NCBI GenBank assembly: GCA_017960525.1
Contig: JAGCZA010000102.1
Location: 1 to 42,880, forward strand
Direction of reading: 5' to 3'
Length of the DNA stretch: 42,880 nucleotides
Source of the DNA: Prevotella sp.
Lineage (GTDB): Bacteria > Bacteroidota > Bacteroidia > Bacteroidales > Bacteroidaceae
Below the pieces are notes generated by a model. The model had not been told where the DNA came from. It worked only from the letters and a program-made list of their open reading frames with translations, and did not search any database. A program made the position numbers and the translations under genes. Below are positions 14,566 through 26,590 of this stretch, in pieces; within the stretch, counting starts at the first letter, position 1, and every line of letters begins with the position of its first letter.

Positions 14566-15138
14566 TCACAAGCCTTGCGGACTTGGCAATTTGCACTCCC
14601 ACACCACGTTGGCACGCACCAAGTCAATCTTCTTCGCCTCTCCCCGCTTGCCTGATATGGAGTAGTACCTTGCAACACTCTTGGGCAGAATCTCCGAGAA
14701 CAGCCTGCGGATTCTGGCGCACTTCTCGTTGATGGAGTTCAGCGTCGGGTTCGTCACATCCTCGATGCTCTGCATCACCCTGTCCGTCATTCCGTATGGC
14801 CTCAGCAGCAGATACAGTTGCGTCAGCTCTTTCCTGTAGTCAGGTAAGCACTTCAGCACAATCCCTTCCGGATGCGACAGGAACAGCAGATACACAGCTT
14901 TCACCAGCGGTTCCATCTTTACCTTAGTGTCTGCACCATCAGCCAGAACAATCTTGTAATCCTCAGTCACCACCAACTGCGGAAACAATTCCTCCTCGTT
15001 CATTGCCGCCACAATCTCAGCATCCTCCACCCCATACGCCTTCAACTTGCGCACCTTCTCCTTCACCTCGTCCAAAAGAATGGAGCAATGGAACTGCTCC
15101 AATTCTTTTGAGAACGCTTTTTGCAATGACTTGTCCAT
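14566..15138 (-). CDS. Conserved hypothetical protein, last gene of the DUF4407 unit
   Basis: A 190-residue soluble helical protein. I recognise its middle stretch AVYLLFLSHPEGIVLKCLPDY followed by RKELTQLYLLL (quoted part: YLLFLSHPEGIVLKCLPDY) as typical of a widespread but unnamed Bacteroidetes family, with the C-terminal ARYYSISGKRGEAKKIDL. No catalytic motif is apparent. The ATG at 15138 (MDKSLQKAF) is preferred; an alternative ATG at 15168 would overlap the previous gene by 17 nt, which would be consistent with coupling. It ends the left-going unit that starts at 17014. Confidence 0.75.
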   Translation of the reverse strand: MDKSLQKAFSKELEQFHCSILLDEVKEKVRKLKAYGVEDAEIVAAMNEEELFPQLVVTEDYKIVLADGADTKVKMEPLVKAVYLLFLSHPEGIVLKCLPDYRKELTQLYLLLRPYGMTDRVMQSIEDVTNPTLNSINEKCARIRRLFSEILPKSVARYYSISGKRGEAKKIDLVRANVVWECKLPSPQGL

Positions 15139-15151
15139 AATTCTACTATCT

Positions 15152-15346
15152 TTAGAATCCCATAGCATCCATCATTGCATCATACTCCATAGGGTTCCTT
15201 GGCATATCGCCATACATCCCGTCAGTCAGGGCATCCCAGGAATCTTCTTCAGTCCACTCGTAGCCTTCGTCATCGTAGCTATCGCACTCACAATCATCAT
15301 ACTCTTCGTACTCCTCGAATGAGTCATAATCATAATTTCTTTCCAT
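15152..15346 (-). CDS. Very acidic small protein
   Basis: A 64-residue protein that starts MERNYDYDSFEEYEEYDD and has about a third Asp/Glu plus many Tyr, with two Cys in CECDSYDDE. The C-terminus (NPMEYDAMMDAMGF) is hydrophobic. It has no signal peptide. Such an acidic product could mimic DNA, act as an antitoxin-like binder or bind Ca2+; none of these is shown. It lies 30 nt after the DUF4407 gene and overlaps or abuts the next gene, so it is likely a real operon member. Confidence 0.65.
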   Translation of the reverse strand: MERNYDYDSFEEYEEYDDCECDSYDDEGYEWTEEDSWDALTDGMYGDMPRNPMEYDAMMDAMGF

Positions 15347-15376
15347 AATGTTGCTGTTTTTAATTGGTTAATACTA

Positions 15377-16360
15377 CTATTTCCTTACTAAAACACTCTG
15401 TGCTGTTTGTTCCATCAGATTTTTCTTCAATTTAAGCTGGTTCTCGACAATTAGTTCGTAGTCACATTTGTTTTCTCCCATCTTGATTGTCAAGACGAAC
15501 AACTCAAGGAAAGTCAGGAAACAGAACAGAATGATGTAGAACGCTAATGAGACCTTGCTCTGTGAGACAACCTTTAATGTCGCTTCAAGCTCTTCAATGA
15601 AACCTGGTGCACGTTGGGCCACCTCCTCCCTTACGGTTTCAGCAACCTCCTTTTTATCCTGTCTGAGTTGTTCTAACTGTGCAGAGTATATCTGAATCTG
15701 GTCGTTGTTGGCTTTCAATTGTTCAGCCAGTGGGTTAGCCAAAGTCACAGTATTTACAGTCTGCGTCTTCACTTTCCTTGGTTTTCCCTCCTCATCAACA
15801 CCAACGACCTGCTCTTGTGTAGAGACATTGGTTCCTTTGATGACCGGCCTTTTCTGTAATTCCTCATTCAAGGCAATAGTGGCTTTACTCAATGAGACCA
15901 TCTCCTGTGTTATCCGATGGATGTCACCGTCATAAATGGATAGCCGTTTCGTCACTGTCGCACCTATTACATCTTCCCGATGTTCCTGAATGGCTTGCTG
16001 AATATCATTGCGGAAGATAATCTGGTCGAAAATGCAAGATCCCAATACTGCCATACATAGAGCTAGTAACACTCTCATGAAACTCATAAGATAGGCTTTT
16101 CCAACGGTCAAAATGATGACTCGTTCCACGCATAGGACGATGAGCATAAATATCAATGTAATACATATCTTCAAAGCGCACGACTCTATGTTGATGTACC
16201 TGTCAGCAAAGCAGTAACCAATTGTTCCCCACAGTATCATCATGATACAGATGGCCGACAGCAGTTTTCTGTACTGGCGATAACTGGCTTCACCACACTC
16301 CTTCAAGATGTTCTTATCCCAACCGATAAGTAAGCACCCAATACTCCTTAAAGTCTTCAT
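15377..16360 (-). CDS. DUF4407 family membrane protein
   Basis: A 327-residue integral membrane protein of the DUF4407 family. The N-terminus SIGCLLIGWDKNILKECGEA is followed by three hydrophobic segments (about 33-52, 60-85, 88-110). A long soluble stretch (about 120-280) contains coiled-coil heptads (EQLKANNDQIQIYSAQLEQL and neighbours), and a fourth membrane segment lies near 275-298. The family's function is unknown. The start has an unusual strong Shine-Dalgarno, AAGGAGG, about 7 nt upstream inside a 27-codon ORF whose stop overlaps this ATG (ATGA), so translation appears coupled. It belongs to the unit divergent from the caspase operon. Confidence 0.85.
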   Translation of the reverse strand: MKTLRSIGCLLIGWDKNILKECGEASYRQYRKLLSAICIMMILWGTIGYCFADRYINIESCALKICITLIFMLIVLCVERVIILTVGKAYLMSFMRVLLALCMAVLGSCIFDQIIFRNDIQQAIQEHREDVIGATVTKRLSIYDGDIHRITQEMVSLSKATIALNEELQKRPVIKGTNVSTQEQVVGVDEEGKPRKVKTQTVNTVTLANPLAEQLKANNDQIQIYSAQLEQLRQDKKEVAETVREEVAQRAPGFIEELEATLKVVSQSKVSLAFYIILFCFLTFLELFVLTIKMGENKCDYELIVENQLKLKKNLMEQTAQSVLVRK

Positions 16361-16440
16361 TTTTTGTCCTCCTTGTATTTGTCAATTAAACTTGTTATAC
16401 CCCAGGAAATCTGTAATCCAATTAAAATAATCCACTGCAT
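16357..16440 (-). CDS. 27-residue membrane peptide overlapping the DUF4407 start
   Basis: ATG at 16440 opens a 27-codon frame whose TGA (16359-16357) overlaps the DUF4407 ATG in the form ATGA. The peptide starts MQWIILIGLQISWGI, one short hydrophobic helix, and ends with charged DKYKEDKK. Ten nucleotides separate it from the upstream gene's stop. Tight spacing, terminal overlap and a downstream Shine-Dalgarno inside it suggest a genuine small membrane peptide or a coupling leader. It could be missed by annotation because of its size. Confidence 0.55.
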   Translation of the reverse strand: MQWIILIGLQISWGITSLIDKYKEDKK

Positions 16441-16450
16441 ATCTCTCTAA

Positions 16451-17014
16451 TTATTTGTTGTTAATGAAATTAACTGCGCTTGCCGCAATTCCTTTGAGGA
16501 AGCCTCTACGATACGACTCTATCATCGTTGTCATCTTTGGCTCGTTGGCCTCTAATTGCGATTGCATTTCTTGTATCTCTGTCAAATGCTCTTCGTATGT
16601 TGCGCGTAGTGCTTCCATATCTGCAGCTGCGGAAAGAGCCAAGGCCTTGTGCGCATTCTCTATTTTCACATTGACAACTCTAATATCACTCTTATACTTA
16701 AGAATGATTCTTTTGAACAGCATCTCCAAATCGTTACGGATGATTTTCTCCTTTGCGTCACGATAAGTGATGTCGCAGTTCACCAGTGCATCCTGGAATC
16801 CTTCTTCCTCGAAGTTCTTGTGGATGAAGTTAAAGATGACATCAATAGGCATCCCTGTTCCCCATGTGATTGTAATCACCCGCTTTTCATCTTTCTTTTC
16901 TTCTTCAGGAGATGTTGTTTTTTTGTTACTCTCTCCCTGAGTGTTCTCTGCTAGGACAGGAGTTATCTCTGTCTCTTCTTTTGGCTTTGCGCCGAATAAT
17001 CCAAAAAGTGCCAT
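16451..17014 (-). CDS. Hypothetical protein, first gene of the DUF4407 unit
   Basis: A 187-residue protein of unknown family. It begins MALFGLFGAKPKEETEI with a short hydrophobic N-terminal patch, then a Glu/Lys-rich linker (20-45), a mixed alpha/beta core (KRVITITWGTGMPIDVIFNF, VNCDITYRDAKEKI), a long amphipathic helix with coiled-coil character (ADMEALRATYEEHLTEIQEM) and a C-terminal KGIAASAVNF helix that could associate with membrane. The start at 17014 is chosen over 17038 because a promoter (TATAAAA at 17064-17058) with a normal leader lies upstream. It shares the regulatory region with the caspase gene. Confidence 0.72.
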   Translation of the reverse strand: MALFGLFGAKPKEETEITPVLAENTQGESNKKTTSPEEEKKDEKRVITITWGTGMPIDVIFNFIHKNFEEEGFQDALVNCDITYRDAKEKIIRNDLEMLFKRIILKYKSDIRVVNVKIENAHKALALSAAADMEALRATYEEHLTEIQEMQSQLEANEPKMTTMIESYRRGFLKGIAASAVNFINNK

Positions 17015-17056
17015 AATTTTTGATTTTAAATGTTTCACAATCTTGTTTTCTTTGCC

Positions 17057-17120
17057 TTTTTATACCCAAAAAACTTGAAAGGTAACCGCTATATCCAAAA
17101 AAAGTTGTATTTTTGCAGAA
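17057..17120. promoter_or_regulatory. Bidirectional promoter module A (caspase operon / DUF4407 unit)
   Basis: The core AAAGGTAACCG spans 17078-17088. To the right, after 19 nt, comes TATTTTTG (17108-17115), then CAGAAAA and the caspase ATG at 17134. To the left, on the minus strand, CGGTTACCTTT is followed after 13 nt by TATAAAAAGG (17064-17055). The same arrangement, with the same left spacing, recurs at 25790-25863. GGTAACC resembles -35 elements of ECF sigma factors, so the ECF factor encoded here may read it. Confidence 0.7.
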
Positions 17121-17133
17121 AATTTATTTCAGT

Positions 17134-18003
17134 ATGAGATTCAGACTATGCCTGATAATGGTAGCCATGCTACTCTCTTCTGCTGTTAATGCCCAGCGGA
17201 AACGGGCTTTCTTGGTTGGAATCTCACATTACGATACGGCACTAACGAGCTACCAATGGAACAACATCAGCGGAGTGGAGGATGTTAATTTACTTTGCCC
17301 CATATTAAACAAGCAAGGATTCTCGACGACAACGCTGTTAGATGAGCAAGCCACCTTCGACGGTATTGTCAGCCACCTGGCGACATTTACAGACAAAACA
17401 AAGAAAGGCGACATCGTCTATTTGCATTTCTCCACACATGGTCAGCCAGTAGAAGACCTTAACGGTGATGAGGAAGATGGCTGGGACGAGTCCATCGTGC
17501 CTATTGATGCTTACAAGTTATACAAGAAAGGAGTATATGAAGGTAAGAAGCATTTGACAGACGACTTACTCAACAAATACATAAAGAAACTTCGTGATAA
17601 GATTGGTTCAACAGGATTCCTTTATGTTGTTATTGACGCCTGTCATGCCGGTACTTCTTCACGTGCCAACGACGAAACAGTCCGAGGAACTCATATCGGC
17701 TTTTCATATAATAATAAGGTGTTCAAGCCTTCTACGAGCAAAAAAACTCATTTCAGAATTGAAGCATCTGCCAAGCAGTCCAACGTCATGTTCATAGAAG
17801 CTTGTCGACCCGACCAGGTGAATACAGAAATAAAGGTTGACGGCAAACGCTATGGGCCTCTTTCATACAATATCGCACAGACTTTATCGGATTTCACGCT
17901 CACAACCAATTCCTGCGATTTCATAGAGAAGGTAAAACGTTCTCTGATTGAAACTGGCCGATGGCCAAACAACCAGAATCTTGTCACAGAAACGAGCTAT
18001 TGA
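17134..18003 (+). CDS. Secreted caspase-family (C14/metacaspase-like) protease
   Basis: A 289-residue clan CD cysteine protease. A signal peptide (MRFRLCLIMVAMLLSSAVNA) precedes the caspase p20-like fold: RAFLVGISHYDT (first strand), then VYLHFSTHGQP carrying catalytic His102, the acidic metacaspase-like loop DLNGDEEDGWDE (109-119), and YVVIDACHAGTS with catalytic Cys170. The small-subunit-like part contains FIEACRPDQ and GPLSYNIAQTL. Metacaspases cleave after Arg or Lys. Location is probably periplasmic. The ATG at 17134 is 18 nt after the promoter. The sigma factor gene starts 1 nt after this stop, so protease, sigma and anti-sigma form one transcript; cleavage of the anti-sigma-like protein by this protease is an attractive inference. 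Confidence 0.88.
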   Translation: MRFRLCLIMVAMLLSSAVNAQRKRAFLVGISHYDTALTSYQWNNISGVEDVNLLCPILNKQGFSTTTLLDEQATFDGIVSHLATFTDKTKKGDIVYLHFSTHGQPVEDLNGDEEDGWDESIVPIDAYKLYKKGVYEGKKHLTDDLLNKYIKKLRDKIGSTGFLYVVIDACHAGTSSRANDETVRGTHIGFSYNNKVFKPSTSKKTHFRIEASAKQSNVMFIEACRPDQVNTEIKVDGKRYGPLSYNIAQTLSDFTLTTNSCDFIEKVKRSLIETGRWPNNQNLVTETSY

Positions 18004-18004
18004 T

Positions 18005-18589
18005 ATGGCAAAAGAGATTAAGCTACAGAATATAGAACTAAACCGCTTTATTGCTGACGAGAGGAATAAGGTGCTGGCCTATCTGAGAAAGACGTTTTCT
18101 GTCTCAGACGATGACTTGGATGACATTTACCAAGAATCGTCCGTCGCCTTGTTTGTGAACATACGCGACGGGAAACTGTCTAATCTCACAAGTACGCTAT
18201 CCACCTACTTCCTTCGTGTCTGTATCAACCAGACATTGAAATTCATGGGAAAGCAAAAGAAAGTTGTCCCTTTGTTTGATGACAGTAGGCTTACGAACAA
18301 GGACGCTTTCCGACCGGACAAGATAGACGAGTTGTATCAGCTCTGCACTGAAGATGAAGAAGCAGAACAAGTGTCCCGCTCCGAGAAGATTGTTCAGAGC
18401 ATCATTGAGGCAATGCCCGACACCTGTAAGAATGTTTTTCAAGGCTATTATTGGGACAATCTCACGACAACCGTTATAGCGGACATGTTCGGCTTTGCAA
18501 ATGCCAACTCAGTCAAGACGCAGAAGTATAAGTGCCTGCAAAAGTTTCGCAACAAGTATAATGAACTAATGAACAAAAACTATGGATAA
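18005..18589 (+). CDS. ECF-type RNA polymerase sigma factor
   Basis: A 194-residue sigma-70 family factor. Region 2 is at about residues 15-80 (LAYLRKTFSVSDDDLDDIYQ, ESSVALFVNIRDG, TYFLRVCINQTLKFM, equivalent to the 2.2-2.4 segment), followed by a charged linker and region 4 (about 135-190, with IIEAMPDTCKNVFQGYYWDN and VIADMFGFANANSVKTQKY). It fits group 4 (ECF) architecture with no regions 1 or 3. The frame is open from 17948, but the ATG at 18005 directly after the caspase stop gives the natural start. It overlaps the following gene by 8 nt. Its probable target promoters are the paired modules at 17057 and 25790. Confidence 0.9.
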   Translation: MAKEIKLQNIELNRFIADERNKVLAYLRKTFSVSDDDLDDIYQESSVALFVNIRDGKLSNLTSTLSTYFLRVCINQTLKFMGKQKKVVPLFDDSRLTNKDAFRPDKIDELYQLCTEDEEAEQVSRSEKIVQSIIEAMPDTCKNVFQGYYWDNLTTTVIADMFGFANANSVKTQKYKCLQKFRNKYNELMNKNYG

Positions 18590-19250
18590 AAACAACGATA
18601 TACTGACGGATGGCATCGACGAGCGGATAGAGTCATTCCTTCGTGGCGAGATGAGTGCAGAGGAAGAAGCTGCCTTCAAACAGGAAATCAAAGCAAATCC
18701 TGAACTGCGCGACCGTGCTAAGACCATGACCTCGCTCATTCGTGGCTTGCAAGCCGAGAACACTGCCAAAGAAAAGGCCATCATCAAAGAGGCTGCCACA
18801 AAGTCAAAAGTACGTCCTATTCTTTGGTGGGTCTGCTCCGCAGCAGCAGTGTTTGCCATCGTATTCGGTATTTACAAAGACCGCCGATACAGCATGTTGG
18901 ACGCAACCATTTCTCCATACTATTCAGAATATGACATGGGCGACATTTCACGTGGTGACGTAGACTCCGTTAGCATTGCCCATCTTTACATGCTATTCTC
19001 CCAAATACAGGAAAGTCGGAACGTGTCAAACATCGTTAAGGAATTAGAACCTATCTACCGCTCTCTTGACGATGACTTCACCTATTACCCCTGGGCAAAC
19101 GATATAGCATGGAATCTCGCATTGGCATACGTTAAGGACGACCAAATAGACAAGGCCATCTCTGTATTGGAGAAGCTCAAACAGGACAATCCCGATACAC
19201 CTCTATATAATAAAGCTAATGAGCTAATTAAGAAATTGAGGGAATTGTAA
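18582..19250 (+). CDS. Membrane anti-sigma-like protein with TPR-like C-terminus
   Basis: A 222-residue single-pass protein. The N-terminal cytoplasmic region (about 1-75) contains ERIESFLRGEMSAEEEAAFK, the pattern typical of Bacteroidetes anti-sigma-factor N-termini. One membrane segment follows (about 84-101, WWVCSAAAVFAIVFGIY), then a periplasmic domain ending in a TPR-like helical pair (ANDIAWNLALAYVKDDQIDK, AISVLEKLKQDNPDTPLYNK). It lacks a zinc-binding HxxxCxxC motif. It overlaps the sigma gene by 8 nt, as sigma/anti-sigma pairs often do. A truncated homologue lies at 20395. Confidence 0.78.
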   Translation: MDKNNDILTDGIDERIESFLRGEMSAEEEAAFKQEIKANPELRDRAKTMTSLIRGLQAENTAKEKAIIKEAATKSKVRPILWWVCSAAAVFAIVFGIYKDRRYSMLDATISPYYSEYDMGDISRGDVDSVSIAHLYMLFSQIQESRNVSNIVKELEPIYRSLDDDFTYYPWANDIAWNLALAYVKDDQIDKAISVLEKLKQDNPDTPLYNKANELIKKLREL

Positions 19251-19255
19251 ACAAA

Positions 19256-19307
19256 GAAAGGCAGACAGCATTTTGAAAGTTATCTTTTCAAACGCTGTCT
19301 GTCTTTC
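19256..19307. terminator. Terminator after the caspase-sigma operon
   Basis: GAAAGGCAGACAGC (19256-19269) and GCTGTCTGTCTTTC (19294-19307) form a 14-bp stem with one G-U. It covers the end of the convergent gene at 19280. Confidence 0.75.
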
Positions 19308-19732
19308 TCTGTCAACCAGAACTTGTGGGTCTTGTCCAAGAAAACCACATAGAAAGTATCGTTGACGATGTGTCCTATTATTACGGCAGGACCATTGACA
19401 TGAATCCTTGCCCAATGCGCATCCTCTGGCACATTCTTGGGATACTCATACATCGTCCTGCCTTCAGGAGGGAATGAGTCGTAAATGGCAAACTTGTCAC
19501 CGTCTATCTGTTGCCTCATTGGCAAGCAACAAAAGCCGCGAAGAGTTTCCATCGCCAAACTTAGCAGCCCAGCCCTTTGCCAATCAAGAAATGCCGAGCC
19601 GAACTTCTGTGTGGTATCTAAATCTTGAAAGGACAACTTGAAATTAGCCGTCCTTTCAATATCGTTTACACTTCTCGGTTTCTCTATCTTTTTAAGAATC
19701 GAGCTGCCTTTCTTCTTGACAATCTTCACCAT
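19280..19732 (-). CDS. Candidate toxin partner of the Panacea antitoxin
   Basis: A 150-residue protein whose ATG overlaps the stop of the upstream Panacea-domain gene by one base (TGATG), the usual antitoxin-toxin arrangement. The N-terminus is basic (MVKIVKKKGSSILKKIEK). The C-terminal half has a compact beta pattern: WARIHVNGPAVIIGHIVND then TFYVVFLDKTHKFWLTEKDR, ending in a family-like FLDKxHxFW motif. I do not recognise a catalytic set; the beta-barrel-like C-terminus could be a new toxin fold. Function as a toxin is inferred only from the gene pair. Confidence 0.65.
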   Translation of the reverse strand: MVKIVKKKGSSILKKIEKPRSVNDIERTANFKLSFQDLDTTQKFGSAFLDWQRAGLLSLAMETLRGFCCLPMRQQIDGDKFAIYDSFPPEGRTMYEYPKNVPEDAHWARIHVNGPAVIIGHIVNDTFYVVFLDKTHKFWLTEKDRQRLKR

Positions 19733-20220
19733 CAGGCAATGTCCCTCTTATAGAATCGCGCAGTTTCTTCCTTTGAGATAATTTCATGGCATGGCTGGGC
19801 AGCATCATAACCAATACGGGCTAACTGCCAGGGCCTTTCATTGTGCGTTGCTCGTTCAAGTTCAAGTCCTGTCCATGAGGCAAGCTGCCCAAGCACGTCT
19901 TTTGTCAAAGCTTGTTGGTCGCTGGTCAGCGTCTCAAATTCTGCATCAACATCCATCCCAGGTGTCTCCGAATAGGCCACATCAGTATATAGTACAGCCT
20001 GCCCTTTCAGCTCATTGAATACTTTTCGGCTTACTGGCCCGTGTACCCATGCTTCAAACTGGTCTGTAATCAATTCCTGACCAAAGTATGCCAAACAATA
20101 GGCATCACAATAGAACAGCAGCTTCTGCAGCTTCAAGTGTGACATCGGTCCATAGTGCTTCAATATATAGTTCGAAAGCACAATGGAGTCTATCGTCTTG
20201 TATTCTTTTGTCTTTACCAT
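19732..20220 (-). CDS. Panacea (DUF4065) domain antitoxin
   Basis: A 162-residue protein of the SocA-like/DUF4065 family, now called Panacea, whose members neutralise varied toxins encoded next to them. Family hallmarks are SNYILKHYGPMSHLKLQKLL, FYCDAYCLAYFGQELITDQF and EAWVHGPVSRKVFNELKG, then the THNERPWQLAR motif near the C-terminus. The ATG at 20220 is preferred over the frame opening at 20250, because the -7 box (TAACTTTG, 20255-20248) lies upstream. It is co-transcribed with the toxin candidate at 19280. Confidence 0.9.
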   Translation of the reverse strand: MVKTKEYKTIDSIVLSNYILKHYGPMSHLKLQKLLFYCDAYCLAYFGQELITDQFEAWVHGPVSRKVFNELKGQAVLYTDVAYSETPGMDVDAEFETLTSDQQALTKDVLGQLASWTGLELERATHNERPWQLARIGYDAAQPCHEIISKEETARFYKRDIA

Positions 20221-20247
20221 AATACCGTCCTTTCTTATTTTCAGCCG

Positions 20248-20277
20248 CAAAGTTAGTAATTATTTCTGTAACGACAA
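20248..20277 (-). promoter_or_regulatory. Promoter of the Panacea pair
   Basis: On the minus strand TTG at 20277-20275, a 19-nt spacer and TAACTTTG at 20255-20248 give a good Bacteroidetes promoter; the start codon is 28 nt downstream. Confidence 0.7.
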
Positions 20278-20394
20278 TAGTTTTTCTTCTTTTTCTGTCA
20301 AAACAGGCTCTTTTTTGTTTGTTCGCAAGGTAATATCGTTCCTTTGGGGGTTACATTGCCTCCCTTAGTTGTATCAACAGGAAAAGTCAGAAAC

Positions 20395-20547
20395 ATGGAA
20401 GAATATGTCGACCAAATCGAAAAGTTCCTCAGAGGTAAGATGACTCGGCAGGAAGAAACAAACTTTAAAGCGTCATTGTCATCAAATTGTCGCCTCCGTT
20501 CATTTGCATTCGTTGTAGCAACCGTGTTAATGTATCAAAAAACTTAG
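20395..20547 (+). pseudogene. Truncated anti-sigma-like N-terminus
   Basis: A 50-codon remnant starting MEEYVDQIEKFLRGKMTRQE. It aligns with residues 13-57 of the anti-sigma-like protein at 18582 (pattern IExFLRGxMxxxEExxFK), then ends in ATVLMYQKT and a stop before any membrane segment. A normal copy would need a membrane domain and an adjacent sigma gene, and neither is present. I interpret it as the broken remains of a second sigma/anti-sigma cassette, perhaps the one originally linked to the CHAT protease. Confidence 0.6.
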
Positions 20548-20553
20548 CAGAAA

Positions 20554-20698
20554 TTTGGCGTTTTCGATTATTGTTTGTACCTTTGCATTCGGAAATAGCT
20601 CCGGTTTCTGCTCCATACTCGAGTCTTGAACCAATGTTAGTAGCTTGATAACGCGGTGCACGGAGAGCCGCATAGTATTAACTCAAATTTTGGTTCAA
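20554..20698 (+). promoter_or_regulatory. Promoter and structured leader of the zinc-ribbon gene
   Basis: TTTG (20554-20557), a 20-nt spacer and TACCTTTG (20578-20585) form a near-perfect promoter. The roughly 110-nt leader contains an outer stem TTGAACCAA (20626-20634) with TTGGTTCAA (20690-20698), and inside it GCGG (20653-20656) with CCGC (20668-20671). The outer stem ends exactly at the ATG at 20699, so it could control translation. Confidence 0.55.
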
Positions 20699-20851
20699 AT
20701 GCAAGAAACTTGTTTTTTCTGTAAAAGCCAGATGGTCGAGACTGATAGACGATACAAAATCGTTGAAGGTAGACCTGAGTTGCAGGTAGAATTGACATGC
20801 ACAAATCCTGAGTGTGGCAATGTTTGGATACGCAGACTCCCAACAGAGTAG
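20699..20851 (+). CDS. 50-residue zinc-ribbon protein
   Basis: A 50-residue protein starting MQETCFFCKSQMVETDRRYK with two CxxC/CxxxxC-type pairs (CFFC near residues 5-8 and CTNPEC near 36-41), ending GNVWIRRLPTE. It resembles small phage Ogr/Delta or Com-type zinc fingers in spacing and in the CTNPECGN motif. It is monocistronic with its own strong promoter and a terminator. Its role is unknown; nucleic-acid binding is the likely guess. Confidence 0.65.
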   Translation: MQETCFFCKSQMVETDRRYKIVEGRPELQVELTCTNPECGNVWIRRLPTE

Positions 20852-20884
20852 TCGCAGGTCCTGTAGGTAATCCTGCCAGTTAAA

Positions 20885-20917
20885 GACAGCCAGCACTTTC
20901 CCAAGGTGCTGGCTGTC
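20885..20917. terminator. Bidirectional terminator
   Basis: GACAGCCAGCAC (20885-20896) and GTGCTGGCTGTC (20906-20917) are perfect 12-bp arms with a 9-nt loop, between the zinc-ribbon gene and the convergent CHAT gene. Confidence 0.85.
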
Positions 20918-20919
20918 TA

Positions 20920-23900
20920 TTAGTCTAACAAGATGAAACCAGCCCAGTAATATGGTGAATTACCCCTAGTCATTAGCTGATTTTGGGCAGTCTTAAGCGA
21001 TTGGTGTGGAGTCTTTCCAGATAATAGTTCTTTATAGAATAATCTCATAAGTTCTTTCGTTTCTTTGTCAGGCACCTTCCACAAGGACATCAGTATTGTT
21101 TTTACACCAGCCCTCTTCAGGCCTCGTTGAAGTCCAAAAACACCATCTACAATATCAATGTCACCTAATCCTGTATTACATGCGGATAAGACGATTAGTT
21201 TGTTCGCACTCAAATCAAGTCGAGAAATTTCGTCAGCAGTTAATATTCCGTCTTCTACACCTTCTTCGATTTCTTTCCCTGTCCATGCATTGTTGCCGCC
21301 TGCAAACAAAAGCCCACTAAAAAGCATAGAATAGTCCTTTTGAGTGTAACTATGAAGACCATTAAAGAAACTTGATGTCACATCCACTTCTGGTGGAAAG
21401 TAAAAACCATGCGTTGCAATGTGTATTAGTGCTGGTGCATGAGCATCGAATGCTTTAAACGATTCCTCATTTGCATCATTCTGAGTGAGCATATATACGT
21501 TTAAGCCTTTACCTCTTAGCATTTCTGCTATAGTCCCTACTTCTTCTTTTGTCCCAGGTAGCAAATCCCATGTTCCTCTGTTTAACGAACGTGTTGCCAA
21601 TATTTCTCCTGAAGTATACGATGAATATGCTCTTGCTTTCTCTGCCATTAAATCAACATCTTCATAATAGTTGACGTCTCCATATAATGCCGCATTATGA
21701 TAATCTATTCCGATGCCTTGTTTTACTTCATCAATCAATGCCGTTGTTGAAACCTCATAAAAATTATAAACCTCTTCCAAGCGGTTATTGCCGTTTGAAA
21801 TAGCAGAAAGATTTATCTTGCCGATATAACCTGTTGGGGAATAATACACAGTGGAGCCTACAGGTATATAAGGTTCTATTTTTTCCCAGATCATTTGATA
21901 GAGCGTCTTGTTTGAAAAGGCGTACAGAGAGTCTATTTCATTTTGCCCCATGGGTGTATATGCATCCATCAGATCTTTCAAATCATATTCAGAACAAAGC
22001 GGTATAAGCTTAGGAACGATGTCCCCTTTTGCTAAAAGCATAGCGCCATACAACAACTCAGACTCATCAAAGGGCGTCTTTATTTGAGGAAGGAAAATGA
22101 ATTCAATAGCAATATCGTTGTCTGAAAGCATTTTCTGCACATCGCCGCACGTTTTAAATTGAGCCATCAACCTACTGCCAAAATTAGGTATTGCGGCAAC
22201 TAAAGTTTTCTCCTTTTCGCTTATTACCTCACGATAAATATCCACAGAATCATTTGGGCAGTTTTTCCCGGAAAGCCTTCTCTTCATATTAATCATTGAA
22301 GAGTATGTATCTTTTATATATTGGTTATCATAACCTTTGACTATGATATCCAATAGTTTACTAGAATTGATAAGCATGCTTTTTGTGAAAAGTGCATTTT
22401 CATATGCCATTACAATTGCTTGTGGTGTGCCACTTTTTATTGCCGCCAGATTGTTTAATAATACTAACGACCGAGAATAATATGTCCAATAACCCTCACG
22501 TTCTGCTGCTGAGAAGTTATCAAACACATCAATTATTATTGTTTGTTGTAAAGCATCGTATTTGTTTACAAGGGAATCAATATTGCCATTGGTTTGCAGA
22601 CAAGAGAGTAGAGAAGAAAAGAATTCGAAAAAAACTCTCTCTCGCGTTCTCAATTCGTTGACTTTGATTTCGCTTAATGTCATGTTTGCGTTGCCGTAAT
22701 CACCTTCCAGAAAAAGCAATTGTGCCATACCTAATTGCGCTAGAGATTTCATTTCTTTATCGTGCGTTTTTGAAGACACATCAATTACTCGATTATACAA
22801 CGTCTTTGCTTTATCATACTCTTTTGAACAAGAATATATTAATGCTAAATTATTGAGCAGCAAAAGTGTTCCACTAGCTTTTTCAAAGTTTGCTCCATAA
22901 GAGTCTGCGTACAAAGTGCAAGCCTCGTCTGCATAAGACTTAGCTAAAGAGAAGTCATCTTTCTCGAAATAGCACATAGATAGATTAGAAAGCAATTTCG
23001 CATACTCAATATCTTTAAAACAAACATTATCATAATATTTCTTTGCTTTCATTAACCACTGAAGAGCCATATCATAATTATTTAACGAAAGGTATAGTAA
23101 ACCTTTTGAATGATACAAACTTACTATTTCATTAGACATAACCTCCTTCTCATTGAATAAATCTAATGAACCATTTAATATGGAATCGGCAGTGTGGTAA
23201 AAACCTTTTGAAATATATAAATTTGATAAACTACTTGCCACAAATGCAAAAAAATCCCTGTCTACATCTACATTTTTGTTGAAACAACTTAACAAGTACT
23301 CAAATAATATTATACTCTTCTTATCATTAGCAGAATTAGTCGCTTTTTCAGTAATATAGATTTGCTTTTCCTTTAGCTCCATATTTAACCTGTTATCAAG
23401 AATGAGCAAAAATTCTTCAATATGTTTTTCACTTTCTTGTTTTCTATCTAATCTAATTTCACAGTTGTTAAGAATGTCTAATGCATTAAGATATTCTTTT
23501 GAATCCTCCCCAAATGTGGAGATGTTTGCTTCACATGACAAAACAGCAAATTTATAAGCCAAATCGTCATTTCTCTCCAAAAAATACGCATATGCTATAT
23601 CGCTGAGCAATTCGCAATAAGCCCTAAACTTGATTCTTTCATCATAGTTTATAAAACGATTATAAGAATCCGTAAACCACGTCAAAGCTTCTTTTGTATT
23701 CTTTTTTCGCAAAAAAGCTGCTCCGATGAAAGCTGATGATATGGGTATTCGCATAGTAGAATCACCTGCTTCTATCGCAATCTTATTGTAGTTCTCCATT
23801 ACATCTATTGCGGCTTGCCATTCTCTTCTCGAGAAATGATGCTGATACGTGTTTTGAACAACGGTATAGTAGGAATACAAGTTCTTTTGTCCGTAATCGC

Positions 23901-24327
23901 TATAATATTTACTCGAAAACTTTTCGATTTCATCTATAATGCTGTCATTCATACTATTAAAGAGTTCTGCACACATCGTCAATATAGGCCATAAATCTGA
24001 TTGGGATGCATTCCCCTCATTTATATTGTTCTTGATATATGTAAATGCTCTTTTCCCCGATTCAGCATAAGGAATAATAGCTGAAACATCTTGGATGGTT
24101 TGAATTTTGACATATCCATTGAAACATCTTGTCAAATCAATTGCGAATGATGCATCCTCCCCTTGTGGATATTTCTGGTAATATTCAAGGATAGAGTCCA
24201 CTTTATTATGTTCCTTGTTTATGATTAATGCTTGCACCTCTTTCATTGCTGATTCATCAAACACTTCTTGGGCAAACATATTGGTTTGACACAACAAAGC
24301 TATAATAAATAAAACTGTAGTCCGCAT
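20920..24327 (-). CDS. Secreted TPR-CHAT protease
   Basis: A 1135-residue protein with signal peptide MRTTVLFIIALLCQTNMFAQ, a long helical TPR-type region (about 30-780, e.g. YDMALQWLMKAKKYYDN, DFSLAKSYADEACTLYAD, KEYDKAKTLYNRVIDVS) and a C-terminal CHAT domain (about 830-1135). The CHAT catalytic pair is visible: His973 in LIHIATHGFYF and Cys1050 in LIVLSACNTGLGD, followed by GLQRGLKRAGVKTILMSLW and the family ending YYWAGFILLD. CHAT proteins are separase/caspase-like cysteine proteases. The gene is notably AT-rich compared with nearby housekeeping genes. It lies 35 nt after the SIR2-domain gene and shares its transcript. Confidence 0.92.
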   Translation of the reverse strand: MRTTVLFIIALLCQTNMFAQEVFDESAMKEVQALIINKEHNKVDSILEYYQKYPQGEDASFAIDLTRCFNGYVKIQTIQDVSAIIPYAESGKRAFTYIKNNINEGNASQSDLWPILTMCAELFNSMNDSIIDEIEKFSSKYYSDYGQKNLYSYYTVVQNTYQHHFSRREWQAAIDVMENYNKIAIEAGDSTMRIPISSAFIGAAFLRKKNTKEALTWFTDSYNRFINYDERIKFRAYCELLSDIAYAYFLERNDDLAYKFAVLSCEANISTFGEDSKEYLNALDILNNCEIRLDRKQESEKHIEEFLLILDNRLNMELKEKQIYITEKATNSANDKKSIILFEYLLSCFNKNVDVDRDFFAFVASSLSNLYISKGFYHTADSILNGSLDLFNEKEVMSNEIVSLYHSKGLLYLSLNNYDMALQWLMKAKKYYDNVCFKDIEYAKLLSNLSMCYFEKDDFSLAKSYADEACTLYADSYGANFEKASGTLLLLNNLALIYSCSKEYDKAKTLYNRVIDVSSKTHDKEMKSLAQLGMAQLLFLEGDYGNANMTLSEIKVNELRTRERVFFEFFSSLLSCLQTNGNIDSLVNKYDALQQTIIIDVFDNFSAAEREGYWTYYSRSLVLLNNLAAIKSGTPQAIVMAYENALFTKSMLINSSKLLDIIVKGYDNQYIKDTYSSMINMKRRLSGKNCPNDSVDIYREVISEKEKTLVAAIPNFGSRLMAQFKTCGDVQKMLSDNDIAIEFIFLPQIKTPFDESELLYGAMLLAKGDIVPKLIPLCSEYDLKDLMDAYTPMGQNEIDSLYAFSNKTLYQMIWEKIEPYIPVGSTVYYSPTGYIGKINLSAISNGNNRLEEVYNFYEVSTTALIDEVKQGIGIDYHNAALYGDVNYYEDVDLMAEKARAYSSYTSGEILATRSLNRGTWDLLPGTKEEVGTIAEMLRGKGLNVYMLTQNDANEESFKAFDAHAPALIHIATHGFYFPPEVDVTSSFFNGLHSYTQKDYSMLFSGLLFAGGNNAWTGKEIEEGVEDGILTADEISRLDLSANKLIVLSACNTGLGDIDIVDGVFGLQRGLKRAGVKTILMSLWKVPDKETKELMRLFYKELLSGKTPHQSLKTAQNQLMTRGNSPYYWAGFILLD

Positions 24328-24362
24328 ATAATCTGATATTAAATGTGATTTGTATCAATCAA

Positions 24363-25763
24363 TTACTCATTTACAGTTAGGAATCGTTTAAGAAGTATTG
24401 GCAACTCCTTATGGTTGTCATCACCTTTGTACCATATAACATTAAGCCCCAAATCGGCGAACATATCCTCTCTTGTTTGAAAATCCTTTTCTACTTTCTC
24501 TAATCCATCATATTCACTCTTCCTTTCTAGAAAAACATAATGCCTTACAGATTTACTGCTACCTCTTTGAGCTATCTCTAACAATCTTCTCAAATTCGGA
24601 TCATTTAACGATAACCCTATAAAGAAGCAGGTACAACGTGTTAGTGCGTGTAATTGCTCTACATTGGACCAATCAAACACTTCTGAATACACTCGGTGAT
24701 AGTCATCTTCTGTTAGCACAATATCTTCAGATAGCCCGCTCTCATTTTCACGAAACACTATTCCATGTACATGATATACAGGGAAAGAGTTACTTTCATC
24801 ACGGCTATTCTTGTATACAGAGAAGCAAGGTTTGCCTTTTGCTTTTAGACAGTCTTCTATCAGTGTGTCATAATTATAGGTAATTACACATCTAAGATTC
24901 TTCTGCTTTATTATAAGTTCACAGATAGTCGTAATTAGATAAGACTCCAGAGTAACATCACTCGGATATAATAGTTGCCTAATTTTATCTACGATGGTTT
25001 TCTTGTCAGCATTAAGAGATTTCTCTATATACCTAGCCGCCAATAAATTGGAACTATCCATAGATTTGAAAACACTATCGAAATCATCTGAAGTTATTAT
25101 AGTGCCTCCTGCTAGCAAGTTCTTCAATAAGGTTTGCCAATCTGGGATTTTTGCAGATGCGCTGACACCAGCCCCTGCAAATATTACACTATCATAACGA
25201 CTAAAATCATTAATTGCTATCTTTAGTCGTTCATCGCGAATACATTCCCAAGAAATATTTTGCTTTTGTTTCTCGCCTCTAAGTGCAGCATTAACTCCAC
25301 CTCTACCTTCGTTTATTGCTTCTTTCGCTTGGATTATAAAAGACGAAGCATCAATTAATCTTATGCGACCTAAGATGTTATTGTTTTGTAAACTATGTTG
25401 AGTTGAGTTTATGTAGACAATTAACAAATTCTTAATAACTCCATCGTCTACTAAAAGCCTGTAGATTTCCGATTGTCGTATTTCAGTATCAAAAAGGAGA
25501 TTATTTCTTATTTCAATTATCGTAGAACCTTGGAAATCGAGAGCATCACAGCCTTTAGGCAAATAAATAGTTGGAATAAAAGAGTAACCTAATTGTTTAA
25601 TTGGAATCTCTTTTGCTAAATCATACGATTCTCCAAGAGATAGAAGTAGAGTTAGAGCATCTACAATCCATCTCCCCAGGCTAATCTCATTTTGTGTTAT
25701 TTGTTCATTATCGACATCAACGATACTGAGATCAAACAATACATTTTTTCTATTGTACCCCAT
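24363..25763 (-). CDS. SIR2-like (SIR2_2) domain protein, probable NADase
   Basis: A 466-residue cytosolic protein. Residues about 1-185 form an unrecognised N-terminal domain. The SIR2-like Rossmann fold then begins at SVIFAGAGVSASAKIPDW (GAG at 197-199), continues with CVITYNYDTLIEDCL, has the His-containing VYHVHGIVF near residue 330, and ends with FFIGLSLNDPNLRRLLEIA. In bacterial immunity, SIR2 domains usually degrade NAD+ (Thoeris, DSR and others). The start at 25763 is chosen because the promoter TAAATTTG lies at 25802-25795, between it and an upstream frame extension. It is followed 35 nt later by the CHAT gene, and the coding region is AT-rich. Confidence 0.88.
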   Translation of the reverse strand: MGYNRKNVLFDLSIVDVDNEQITQNEISLGRWIVDALTLLLSLGESYDLAKEIPIKQLGYSFIPTIYLPKGCDALDFQGSTIIEIRNNLLFDTEIRQSEIYRLLVDDGVIKNLLIVYINSTQHSLQNNNILGRIRLIDASSFIIQAKEAINEGRGGVNAALRGEKQKQNISWECIRDERLKIAINDFSRYDSVIFAGAGVSASAKIPDWQTLLKNLLAGGTIITSDDFDSVFKSMDSSNLLAARYIEKSLNADKKTIVDKIRQLLYPSDVTLESYLITTICELIIKQKNLRCVITYNYDTLIEDCLKAKGKPCFSVYKNSRDESNSFPVYHVHGIVFRENESGLSEDIVLTEDDYHRVYSEVFDWSNVEQLHALTRCTCFFIGLSLNDPNLRRLLEIAQRGSSKSVRHYVFLERKSEYDGLEKVEKDFQTREDMFADLGLNVIWYKGDDNHKELPILLKRFLTVNE

Positions 25764-25789
25764 GCTTGTTTTTATAATACACACTATTT

Positions 25790-25863
25790 TTCTGCAAATT
25801 TACAAATTTTCTTCAAAAGACGGTTACCTTTTCTTACTTTTTTGTATAAAAGGATGAAGAAAG
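25790..25863. promoter_or_regulatory. Bidirectional promoter module B (SIR2-CHAT operon)
   Basis: On the minus strand AAAGGTAACCG (25831-25821), 18 nt, then TAAATTTG (25802-25795) followed by CAGAAAA. On the plus strand CGGTTACCTTT (25821-25831), 13 nt, then TATAAAAGG (25845-25853). Both sides match module A at 17057-17120, including the 13-nt left-hand spacing and the GCAGAAAA downstream word. Confidence 0.7.
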
Positions 25864-25931
25864 CTCCAAAAGAAACCAATCACAAGGTTGCGGAAGCAGC
25901 TTTGCTTGGACAAATAGGAAAGAAAAAGTAA
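25854..25931 (+). CDS. Possible 25-residue basic peptide
   Basis: ATG at 25854 opens a 25-codon frame, product MKKAPKETNHKVAEAALLGQ then Ile-Gly and three Lys. It is next to module B but only 3 nt after the TATAAAAGG element, so transcripts starting there would miss the ATG. It may be expressed from elsewhere or be chance. Its composition (Lys-rich ends, central helix) is not decisive. Confidence 0.25.
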   Translation: MKKAPKETNHKVAEAALLGQIGKKK

Positions 25932-26053: not shown

Positions 26054-26590
26054 ATGAAAAAGTTAATGATGACACTGATGGCTGCCGTATTCGCCATCGC
26101 AGCTAACGCTCAGTATTACAACGTCGGCACATCAACGACAAGCACCGATTACTTCGGCAATCAGACGACGACGCATCGCAACCAATATGGGCAGACAACT
26201 GGCACATCCACCTCGTCAACCGACTACTTCGGTAATACGACGACCACTCACCGTGACAGCTACGGCAACACTATCGGCACTTCTACAACATCGACAGACT
26301 ATTTCGGCAACACAACCACGACTCATCGTGACCGCTATGGGAACACAACGGGAACGGCAAGGTCGAACACAGACTACTTCGGCAACACCAATACCACTTA
26401 TTCGGACTATTACGGCCGCTCAACTGGATCGTCAACCACCTCTACCGATTACTTCGGCAATACCACAACCACGTACCGCAACCAGTCCGGTCACACACAA
26501 GGCACCTCCATTTCCTCCTATGACTATTTCGGTAACCGTAACACCCAGCAGCGCAGCAACGACTTAAACACAAGCATTTGGACTTGGTGA
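26054..26590 (+). CDS. Secreted Thr/Tyr-rich tandem-repeat protein
   Basis: A 178-residue exported protein: signal peptide MKKLMMTLMAAVFAIAANA, then about six tandem units of 25 residues with the core TSTDYFGNTTTTHRDxYGNT. Each unit carries invariant DYFGN, and the spacing matches a 75-bp DNA period. The last unit degenerates and the protein ends SIWTW. The repetitive beta-prone Thr/Tyr/Asn composition suggests an extended surface or periplasmic structure. No family was recognised. A hairpin terminator follows. Confidence 0.8.
   Translation: MKKLMMTLMAAVFAIAANAQYYNVGTSTTSTDYFGNQTTTHRNQYGQTTGTSTSSTDYFGNTTTTHRDSYGNTIGTSTTSTDYFGNTTTTHRDRYGNTTGTARSNTDYFGNTNTTYSDYYGRSTGSSTTSTDYFGNTTTTYRNQSGHTQGTSISSYDYFGNRNTQQRSNDLNTSIWTW

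Follow-up and report, generated by a model that had tools for sequence, protein, structure and literature searches.

In the type III-E system Craspase, as the sections of the source used here describe it, the TPR-CHAT protease Csx29 is associated with Csx30 and CASP-sigma, the protease releases an ECF (extracytoplasmic function) sigma factor to act on its own locus, and motifs of this sigma factor occur in promoters there (PMC10028731). In the sigma-E/RseA/DegS/RseP pathway, a membrane anti-sigma factor with a cytoplasmic N-terminus is cut on its periplasmic side; according to the same sections, it is housekeeping proteases that cleave anti-sigma factors of the RseA type (PMC10028731). Neighbourhoods that unite an EACC2-caspase, an extracytoplasmic function (ECF) sigma factor and a TPR (DUF1822) protein were predicted by Kaur et al. 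(2021), who proposed an immune or death role for them in the part of the article available to us (PMC8195603). To the extent that these articles could be consulted, the Craspase papers and PMC8195603 are the published relatives found for the gene combination presented here, which lies in a stretch of 42,880 nucleotides from Prevotella sp. (contig JAGCZA010000102.1 of assembly GCA_017960525.1; this whole stretch is hereafter the window). Its region 17134-25784 encodes a caspase, an ECF sigma factor and a one-pass TPR anti-sigma protein, together with a convergent SIR2/TPR-CHAT operon. No description of this cassette was found in open PMC papers, judged from titles, the starts of abstracts and passages, a scope that leaves out preprints and most subscription papers.

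We consider it somewhat probable that the cassette is an envelope-sensing, protease-gated sigma switch that works across the inner membrane with exchangeable effectors. The basis of this reading is the co-occurrence of the genes, their domain content and predicted topology, a two-promoter regulon recognised in the sequence, the conservation of an Arg-Gly pair, and the variation of the CHAT and accessory genes. The features concerned are:

17059..17115, + strand: promoter P1, TTTATAC-N15-GGTAACC-N20-TATTTTTG, upstream of the caspase, sigma and anti-sigma genes
17134..18003, + strand: caspase-family (Peptidase_C14, PF00656) protease with a probable signal peptide, H102/C170
17683..17688, + strand: candidate self-processing site Arg184-Gly185 (aligned RG), in the caspase linker that follows the catalytic Cys
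18005..18589, + strand: ECF-type sigma factor (family profile: SigW, sigma-E)
18582..19250, + strand: one-pass membrane anti-sigma-like protein (AlphaFold2 layout, alignment)
18951..18956, + strand: predicted R|G cleavage site Arg124-Gly125, in the anti-sigma loop that connects the membrane helix with the TPR domain
20920..24327, - strand: TPR-CHAT protease (PF12770) with a probable signal peptide, H973/C1050
24363..25784, - strand: SIR2-like (ThsA/KomC-related) probable NADase by profiles and motifs, first gene of the CHAT operon
25795..25850, - strand: promoter P2, TTTATAC-N15-GGTAACC-N19-TAAATTTG, upstream of SIR2 and CHAT

All five main genes are backed by domain searches. A preliminary description of this DNA had placed the genes and the catalytic residues of both proteases correctly, and its location of the sigma gene between those for caspase and anti-sigma, in closely packed order, also holds: a single base separates the caspase stop from the sigma start, and the sigma and anti-sigma genes overlap by 8 bases. 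On the other strand, a gap of 35 bases follows the SIR2 gene before TPR-CHAT begins. The caspase matches PF00656 (E=1.2e-17, Pfam) and metacaspases in a PDB search, and the His-Cys dyad of a caspase-like C14 protease is present, H102 and C170 being invariant in all 21 aligned sequences. The second protease joins TPR repeats to a CHAT domain (PF12770, E=2e-47) with its His and Cys. The domains of the two secreted clan CD proteases claimed earlier are those expected, and their secretion is probable by our own lenient hydrophobicity rule (cut 1.8), which accepts 44/44 caspases and 41/43 CHATs. As a single sequence the sigma factor falls below the Pfam cut-offs; its family profile retrieves SigW (E=9.6e-8 over residues 36-187) and sigma-E from the PDB, and it has the small size and regions 2 and 4 of an ECF factor, with an anti-sigma-like gene adjacent. 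The gene at 24363 keeps its earlier assignment as a probable SIR2 NADase by sequence, with a match to SIR2_2 (PF13289, E=6.6e-23) and the motifs GAGVS, TYNYD and HVHG, which correspond to a SIR2 fold with the catalytic Asn and His.

Like Craspase, as far as the sections consulted go, the locus combines a TPR-CHAT protease, a putative sigma inhibitor, an ECF sigma factor and candidate sigma motifs in its own promoters (PMC10028731). Unlike Craspase, its proteases appear to be secreted, its anti-sigma is a one-pass membrane TPR protein, a caspase is added and the accessory genes vary. None of the 10 window genes scanned matched a cas family, a scan that did not extend to Cas7-11 or CRISPR arrays in the rest of the window or genome. 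With the anti-sigma profile, 23 PDB sequences came up at E<=1, of which most were TPR proteins and none was named Csx30, and the PDB search with CHAT listed no Csx29 chain; both were searches by sequence, in which absence is not proof. What survives of the type III-E analogy that had been proposed is thus the functional likeness, set against these missing matches, the apparent secretion of the proteases and the membrane-bound anti-sigma. With sigma-E/RseA/DegS/RseP, again in the sections consulted, the locus would share a membrane anti-sigma factor with a cytoplasmic N-terminus and a cut, here predicted, on the periplasmic side (PMC10028731); the modelled layout is compatible with the RseA type (cytoplasmic domain, one membrane helix, periplasmic domain). 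It differs in that the candidate site-1 protease belongs to clan CD and is encoded in the locus behind the same promoter module, and in the TPR domain outside. We do not file the locus as a member of either the Craspase or the RseA systems. The EACC2 neighbourhoods, as described in the part of the article available, likewise bring together caspase, ECF sigma and TPR genes (PMC8195603). Here, by contrast, a probably secreted caspase and a TPR-CHAT protein are separate, the anti-sigma has an Arg-Gly linker, Abi-type genes vary and the promoter is shared by sequence; in the window caspase the only Pfam match above cut-off is the caspase domain, no model search having been aimed at EACC2. The SIR2 protein resembles ThsA and KomC in its GAGV, N-Y-D and H-x-H-G motifs and in its PDB matches (ThsA E=3.5e-7, KomC E=5.3e-6), and differs from them in an N-terminal stretch of about 185 aa that precedes the SIR2 part and matches nothing in Pfam, in a promoter shared with the sigma operon and in the CHAT gene alongside. 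Its best matches to ThsA models of Thoeris span only the first part of the model, and no TIR match was found among the 10 window genes to which that scan was confined.

A feature that would suit proteolytic control is found in the anti-sigma protein. Its AlphaFold2 model, built from the 21-sequence alignment (mean predicted local distance difference test score, pLDDT, 80.6), contains N-terminal helices, a helix with the membrane span (78-113), a loop (114-128) and a confident TPR domain (129-220). In the VIA-align rows residues ~125-222 pair with helical-repeat proteins such as PlcR, LapB and BamD, repeats that easily reach a middling Z; neither Csx30 nor Csx29 appears among these rows, an absence that again is not proof. 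R124-G125 is the sole invariant pair of the linker (21/21), and RG is retained in 40/44 sequences once more distant homologues are added. In the excerpts consulted, the characterised C14 members, animal caspases excepted, have a strict preference for Arg or Lys at P1 (PMC5756287); the window caspase is therefore expected to cut after Arg/Lys, and R124|G125 is the predicted cut site. The position of this pair after the membrane helix is also compatible with a cut made by a clan CD protease that is specific for Arg. In the caspase itself, an aligned RG follows the catalytic Cys in 44/44 sequences, close to residues 172-179 with pLDDT <50, and it suits a self-processing site of this caspase subfamily. 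Most other relatives aligned have it too, the exceptions being L129 (RN), L133 (RT) and L134 (RS; L numbers denote loci). More widely, 17 of 40 class-level anti-sigma loci have Arg-Gly or Arg-Ser within the 45 residues after the membrane span, and a CHAT or caspase gene lies within 5 kb in 8 of these 17 as against 1 of the 23 others (Fisher p=0.002, indicative only, since the linkers of about half of the 40 loci were known before the stretches were chosen).

The two operons are further tied by a common module at their heads, TTTATAC-N15-GGTAACC-N19/20-TAnnTTTGC, which forms an inverted repeat (17047-17088 and 25821-25862, 71% complementary). In its own genome the pattern GGTAACCN{17,22}TANNTTTG has three matches, namely P1, P2 and a G+C-rich one on contig C137, and TTTATACN{13,16}GGTAAC has P1 and P2 only. 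A reversed control pattern also gives two matches, so that the number itself is unremarkable; it is the placement at both operon heads that is remarkable. Across 14 cassette genomes all 17 matches of TTTATACN{14,16}GGTAAC precede a caspase or CHAT operon, including one ahead of a CHAT gene on a separate contig of genome G1094; in G977, in G1065 and in the window, where it is SIR2, another gene intervenes between motif and CHAT. The same pattern has three matches in 18 comparison genomes, whose sigma match is absent or weak (E 1.1e-5 or worse). ATAC-N-GTAAC-N-TAnnTTTG precedes the caspase gene in 13/13 loci (L038-L050). A two-block matrix found no more than two sites per locus in the 25 sources scanned and none in 248,048 shuffled bases; it was trained on 21 of these sites, whose recovery is circular, and its non-circular support is that the untrained loci L168, L170, L172 and L173 have sites in the expected places, that no locus exceeds two and that the shuffled bases give none. 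A -35 element with GTAAC and a promoter ahead of the own operon are typical of ECF factors, and the sigma factor of the locus probably reads the shared promoter. The promoter module that the preliminary description had assigned to both operons is thus present, and it is specific to the locus in the near clade. The inverted repeat was also considered as the ends of a mobile element, a reading that was dropped because the motif precedes both operons in many genomes and promoters fit better.

The association extends beyond this strain. A search with the sigma factor brought up near relatives whose assemblies bear the titles Prevotella, Prevotellaceae, Bacteroidaceae or Bacteroidales; many of them come from ruminant guts. 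The caspase profile matches 45/398 genomes of the genus at E<=1e-40 and 36/393 of the order at E<=1e-25. Sigma, anti-sigma and CHAT genes all lie within 8 kb of the caspase in 20 of 39 loci found with the caspase as bait. Smaller sets occur as well: sigma and anti-sigma in two loci, sigma and CHAT in two, anti-sigma and CHAT in one and sigma only in two. In the numbering of loci used here, L071-L074 repeat L042, L040, L050 and L044. At L192 and L194, which represent other families of this order, the caspase, sigma, anti-sigma and CHAT genes follow one another on a single strand. The co-occurrence that had been predicted for five genes therefore holds for four of them, in Prevotella and in other families, and not for SIR2, which among the tabulated cassettes is found besides the window only in L060 (genome G130), the others having AbiH, Lit, other genes or nothing. 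SIR2 stands ahead of CHAT in the window and behind it in L060.

The genes of the cassette do not change at the same pace. Nine relatives were compared with the window, eight of which share the genes at its flanks. The median identities are 88% (DUF4407), 87% (sigma), 78% (caspase) and 71% (anti-sigma), whereas in the CHAT protein they are 24% over the TPR part and 35% over the CHAT domain, L044 (37% and 77%) being an exception. By this contrast in identity, CHAT has either been exchanged or evolved much more quickly than its neighbours. The number of CHAT genes per arm ranges from one to three in the arms examined, L249 having three, and in L170 (16520-18649) the CHAT operon, again preceded by the shared promoter motif, begins with a trypsin-like TPR peptidase, which gives some cassettes a third protease.

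Between the core genes lies an accessory slot, for which we compiled by hand the open reading frames (ORFs) of at least 150 aa that stand between the outermost core genes wherever caspase, sigma and anti-sigma are all present; three genes of the window were added. Ten of these 26 ORFs match PADLOC families at E<=1e-8, in a set from which shorter ORFs and L193 and L205-L207 are excluded and for which the families were chosen post hoc. The ten comprise two SIR2/ThsA, two AbiH (L067, L174), two Lit/Peptidase_U49 with HETAH (L068, L176) and one each of DUF2971/PDC-S31 (L066), DUF3800/PDC-S51 (L170), a SLFN_AlbA protein with a pAgo-model match (L184) and DUF3990/PDC-M13, of an ADP-ribosyltransferase-like family (L175, the sole locus whose slot ORF matches PDC-M13, M10 and M42). 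When nine slot defence proteins served as phmmer queries against 594 flanking control ORFs, a DUF3990 protein was the single match; working from one sequence, such a search can overlook distant members. In first-look genome searches G178 and G1061 each yielded a single Peptidase_U49, which lay in the cassette; the cassette also contained one of the two AbiH genes found in G032 and in G1109, and the only SIR2_2 found in the window's genome; such searches can miss copies, a PF00656 search of that genome having missed the window caspase itself. No SIR2 was found in viral contigs. With moderate confidence, the slot can be regarded as a place for exchangeable effectors. Regulatory variants were also seen: L186 has a CHASE2 protein and TPR proteins, and L187 has LytTR and FHA proteins and a second caspase.

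From these data we infer sigma/anti-sigma binding, cleavage, a trigger, NAD loss and a defence role, in the following sequence. At rest, the anti-sigma protein would keep the ECF sigma factor at the membrane by its cytoplasmic N-terminus, and its TPR domain would share the periplasm with both proteases, caspase and TPR-CHAT. The proteases would be activated by a disturbance of the envelope, for whose detection the quickly evolving TPR part of CHAT is the likeliest candidate. The caspase or CHAT would then cut the anti-sigma behind Arg124, in the loop that joins its membrane helix to its TPR domain, and the caspase would cleave itself at the matching Arg184-Gly185. Once the leftover anchor had been removed, presumably by a site-2 protease, the freed sigma would fire both promoters of the locus, yielding more proteases in a positive feedback together with the SIR2 NADase, whose depletion of NAD would lead to cell arrest or death. 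A further element may act in the opposite direction:

20395..20547, + strand: 50-aa mini anti-sigma, with the N-terminal motif only (IEKFLRGxM) and no membrane anchor seen (homologue comparison)

Homologues of this protein, with the motif IEKFLRGQM and a hydrophobic tail, lie downstream of the anti-sigma gene in 11/12 loci (L038-L049; L048 ends soon after). As a guess, with nothing but its sigma-binding-like motif, it could be a soluble feedback brake that ends the response.

Several observations weigh against the proposed switch or narrow it. The Arg-Gly of the caspase is present in relatives near which no anti-sigma gene was found, and is therefore a mark of the subfamily and not of the pathway, and four of the 44 anti-sigma proteins have another pair at this place (L191 HG, L194 DG, L203 RA, L204 VE). 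In all nine class-level loci with a protease partner the partner is CHAT and never a caspase, so that CHAT may be the older site-1 protease; in wider Bacteroidia the Arg is kept beside CHAT where no caspase is present, which makes the identity of the cutting protease ambiguous. Seven of the 39 caspase loci have CHAT only and five have none of the three other genes, some of these lying near contig ends or on short contigs. The promoter is a near-clade feature, as no matrix site was found in L061, L068, L169, L175 or L176; even among the ten L038-L049 loci with a complete CHAT arm, the site precedes this arm in six (not in L040, L041, L046 or L049). In L060, L248 and L249 (G130, G1094, G1007) the CHAT promoter keeps TATAC-N-GGTAACC with no clear -7 box at the right spacing; the TTTATAC element, ~16 bases upstream of GGTAAC and retained in these loci, may bind a second factor. 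As for the effectors, no slot ORF of at least 150 aa matches a defence family in the 12 near loci L038-L049, so that the effector would be optional; the AbiH loci L067 and L174 look like close copies, and 10/26 then represents fewer independent events. A set of 100 flanking control proteins, drawn from 288, together matched 61 PADLOC families, PDC-M13 being among the 25 families listed, so that PADLOC matches are no rarity outside the slot; for this reason any PADLOC match was abandoned as a measure of enrichment and specific families were compared instead. Finally, the window SIR2 scores 1.97 from either start under the hydrophobicity rule, above the cut, and the L060 homologue 1.17; that SIR2 acts in the cytoplasm is our assumption.

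These points bear on three other explanations. A general envelope-stress response for protein quality would follow the same logic, with proteases that clear or process envelope proteins and accessory genes as incidental passengers. It would account for the 12 near loci, in which a core without defence-family accessory gene is the rule, for the conservation of the locus neighbours in near relatives and for the outcome of the phage and plasmid searches with the caspase: its candidacy as a phage or plasmid gene was rejected on a single weak partial phage match and 85 plasmid records at <60% identity, with no Bacteroidetes among the organisms named (10 organism names were not shown). It fits less well with the several different defence families that occupy the slots elsewhere, as compared with the one match in 594 flanking ORFs, and with a CHAT arm far more divergent than the rest, a fast-changing sensor being better suited to conflict than to housekeeping. 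We regard this explanation as unlikely, though it is the strongest of the three.

Somewhat less probable again, in our view, is release of sigma by ordinary proteases of the DegS/RseP type, with caspase and CHAT as outputs, that is effectors, and not as the trigger. The precedent of RseA supports it, as does the fact that all 17 motif matches put the proteases downstream of the switch; the conserved Arg-Gly of the linker is better suited to an Arg-specific protease, and the indicative excess of CHAT or caspase genes near Arg-Gly/Ser linkers likewise speaks for a protease of the locus. That the two promoter copies are a recent inverted duplication under the main sigma factor, without a regulon of their own, appears very improbable. 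The copies do form an inverted repeat, and TAnnTTTG, their -7 part, is the usual Bacteroidetes -7 box; however, the GGTAAC block and TTTATAC are conserved at fixed spacing over many species while the spacer sequence differs, and the pattern is nearly confined to the locus in the genomes searched.

If the protease-gated switch is accepted, a bolder proposal can be put forward tentatively, namely that it represents a class of inducible immunity not described before, in which a hypervariable secreted TPR-CHAT senses envelope attack, cuts the nearly universal Arg-Gly of the anti-sigma and turns on an interchangeable suicide effector (SIR2, AbiH, Lit, DUF2971, DUF3800, DUF3990 types and others). 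The anti-phage role in this proposal is suggested by the association with Abi-type families.

Other genes adjoin the cassette or lie inside it. On the - strand, 14566-17038 holds three genes (14566, a DUF4407 membrane protein and 16451) that are kept beside the cassette in near relatives. The preliminary description had counted this region in the regulon; it lies on the opposite strand with its synteny kept in near relatives, it has no regulon sign that we could see, and its genes, not found beside most distant cassettes, were rejected as system members. In many near relatives an extra gene of ~180-200 aa, with a hydrophobic N-terminus, stands between these genes and the caspase; it is missing in the window. 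Between the two operons, next to the mini anti-sigma gene, 19280-20250 (- strand) encodes a Panacea-domain protein (SocA-like antitoxin, PF13274, E=3.6e-19) and a 150-aa protein without Pfam match, possibly a toxin-antitoxin pair, with the anti-sigma gene on one side and the mini anti-sigma gene on the other; a tblastn search of the relatives' loci that were compared gave no homologue of either. At 26054-26590 (+ strand) lies a probably secreted protein with 25-residue YFGN-type repeats, encoded with five 75-base direct repeats, a homologue of which stands beside the CHAT arm in L038, L039, L044, L047, L060 and L062.

The conservation of Arg-Gly in anti-sigma and caspase, the contrast in divergence between sigma and CHAT, and the defence-family accessory ORFs are new in this analysis. 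To our knowledge, the natural substrates of secreted bacterial caspases are mostly unknown, and R124|G125 of the anti-sigma protein gives these enzymes a concrete predicted substrate and cut site. The module TTTATAC-N15-GGTAACC-N19/20-TAnnTTTG offers a handle for finding further genes of the switch. More generally, the results suggest that the gating of sigma release by CHAT, for which type III-E CRISPR is the known case, is more widespread in Bacteroidia, as an envelope-facing circuit without CRISPR.

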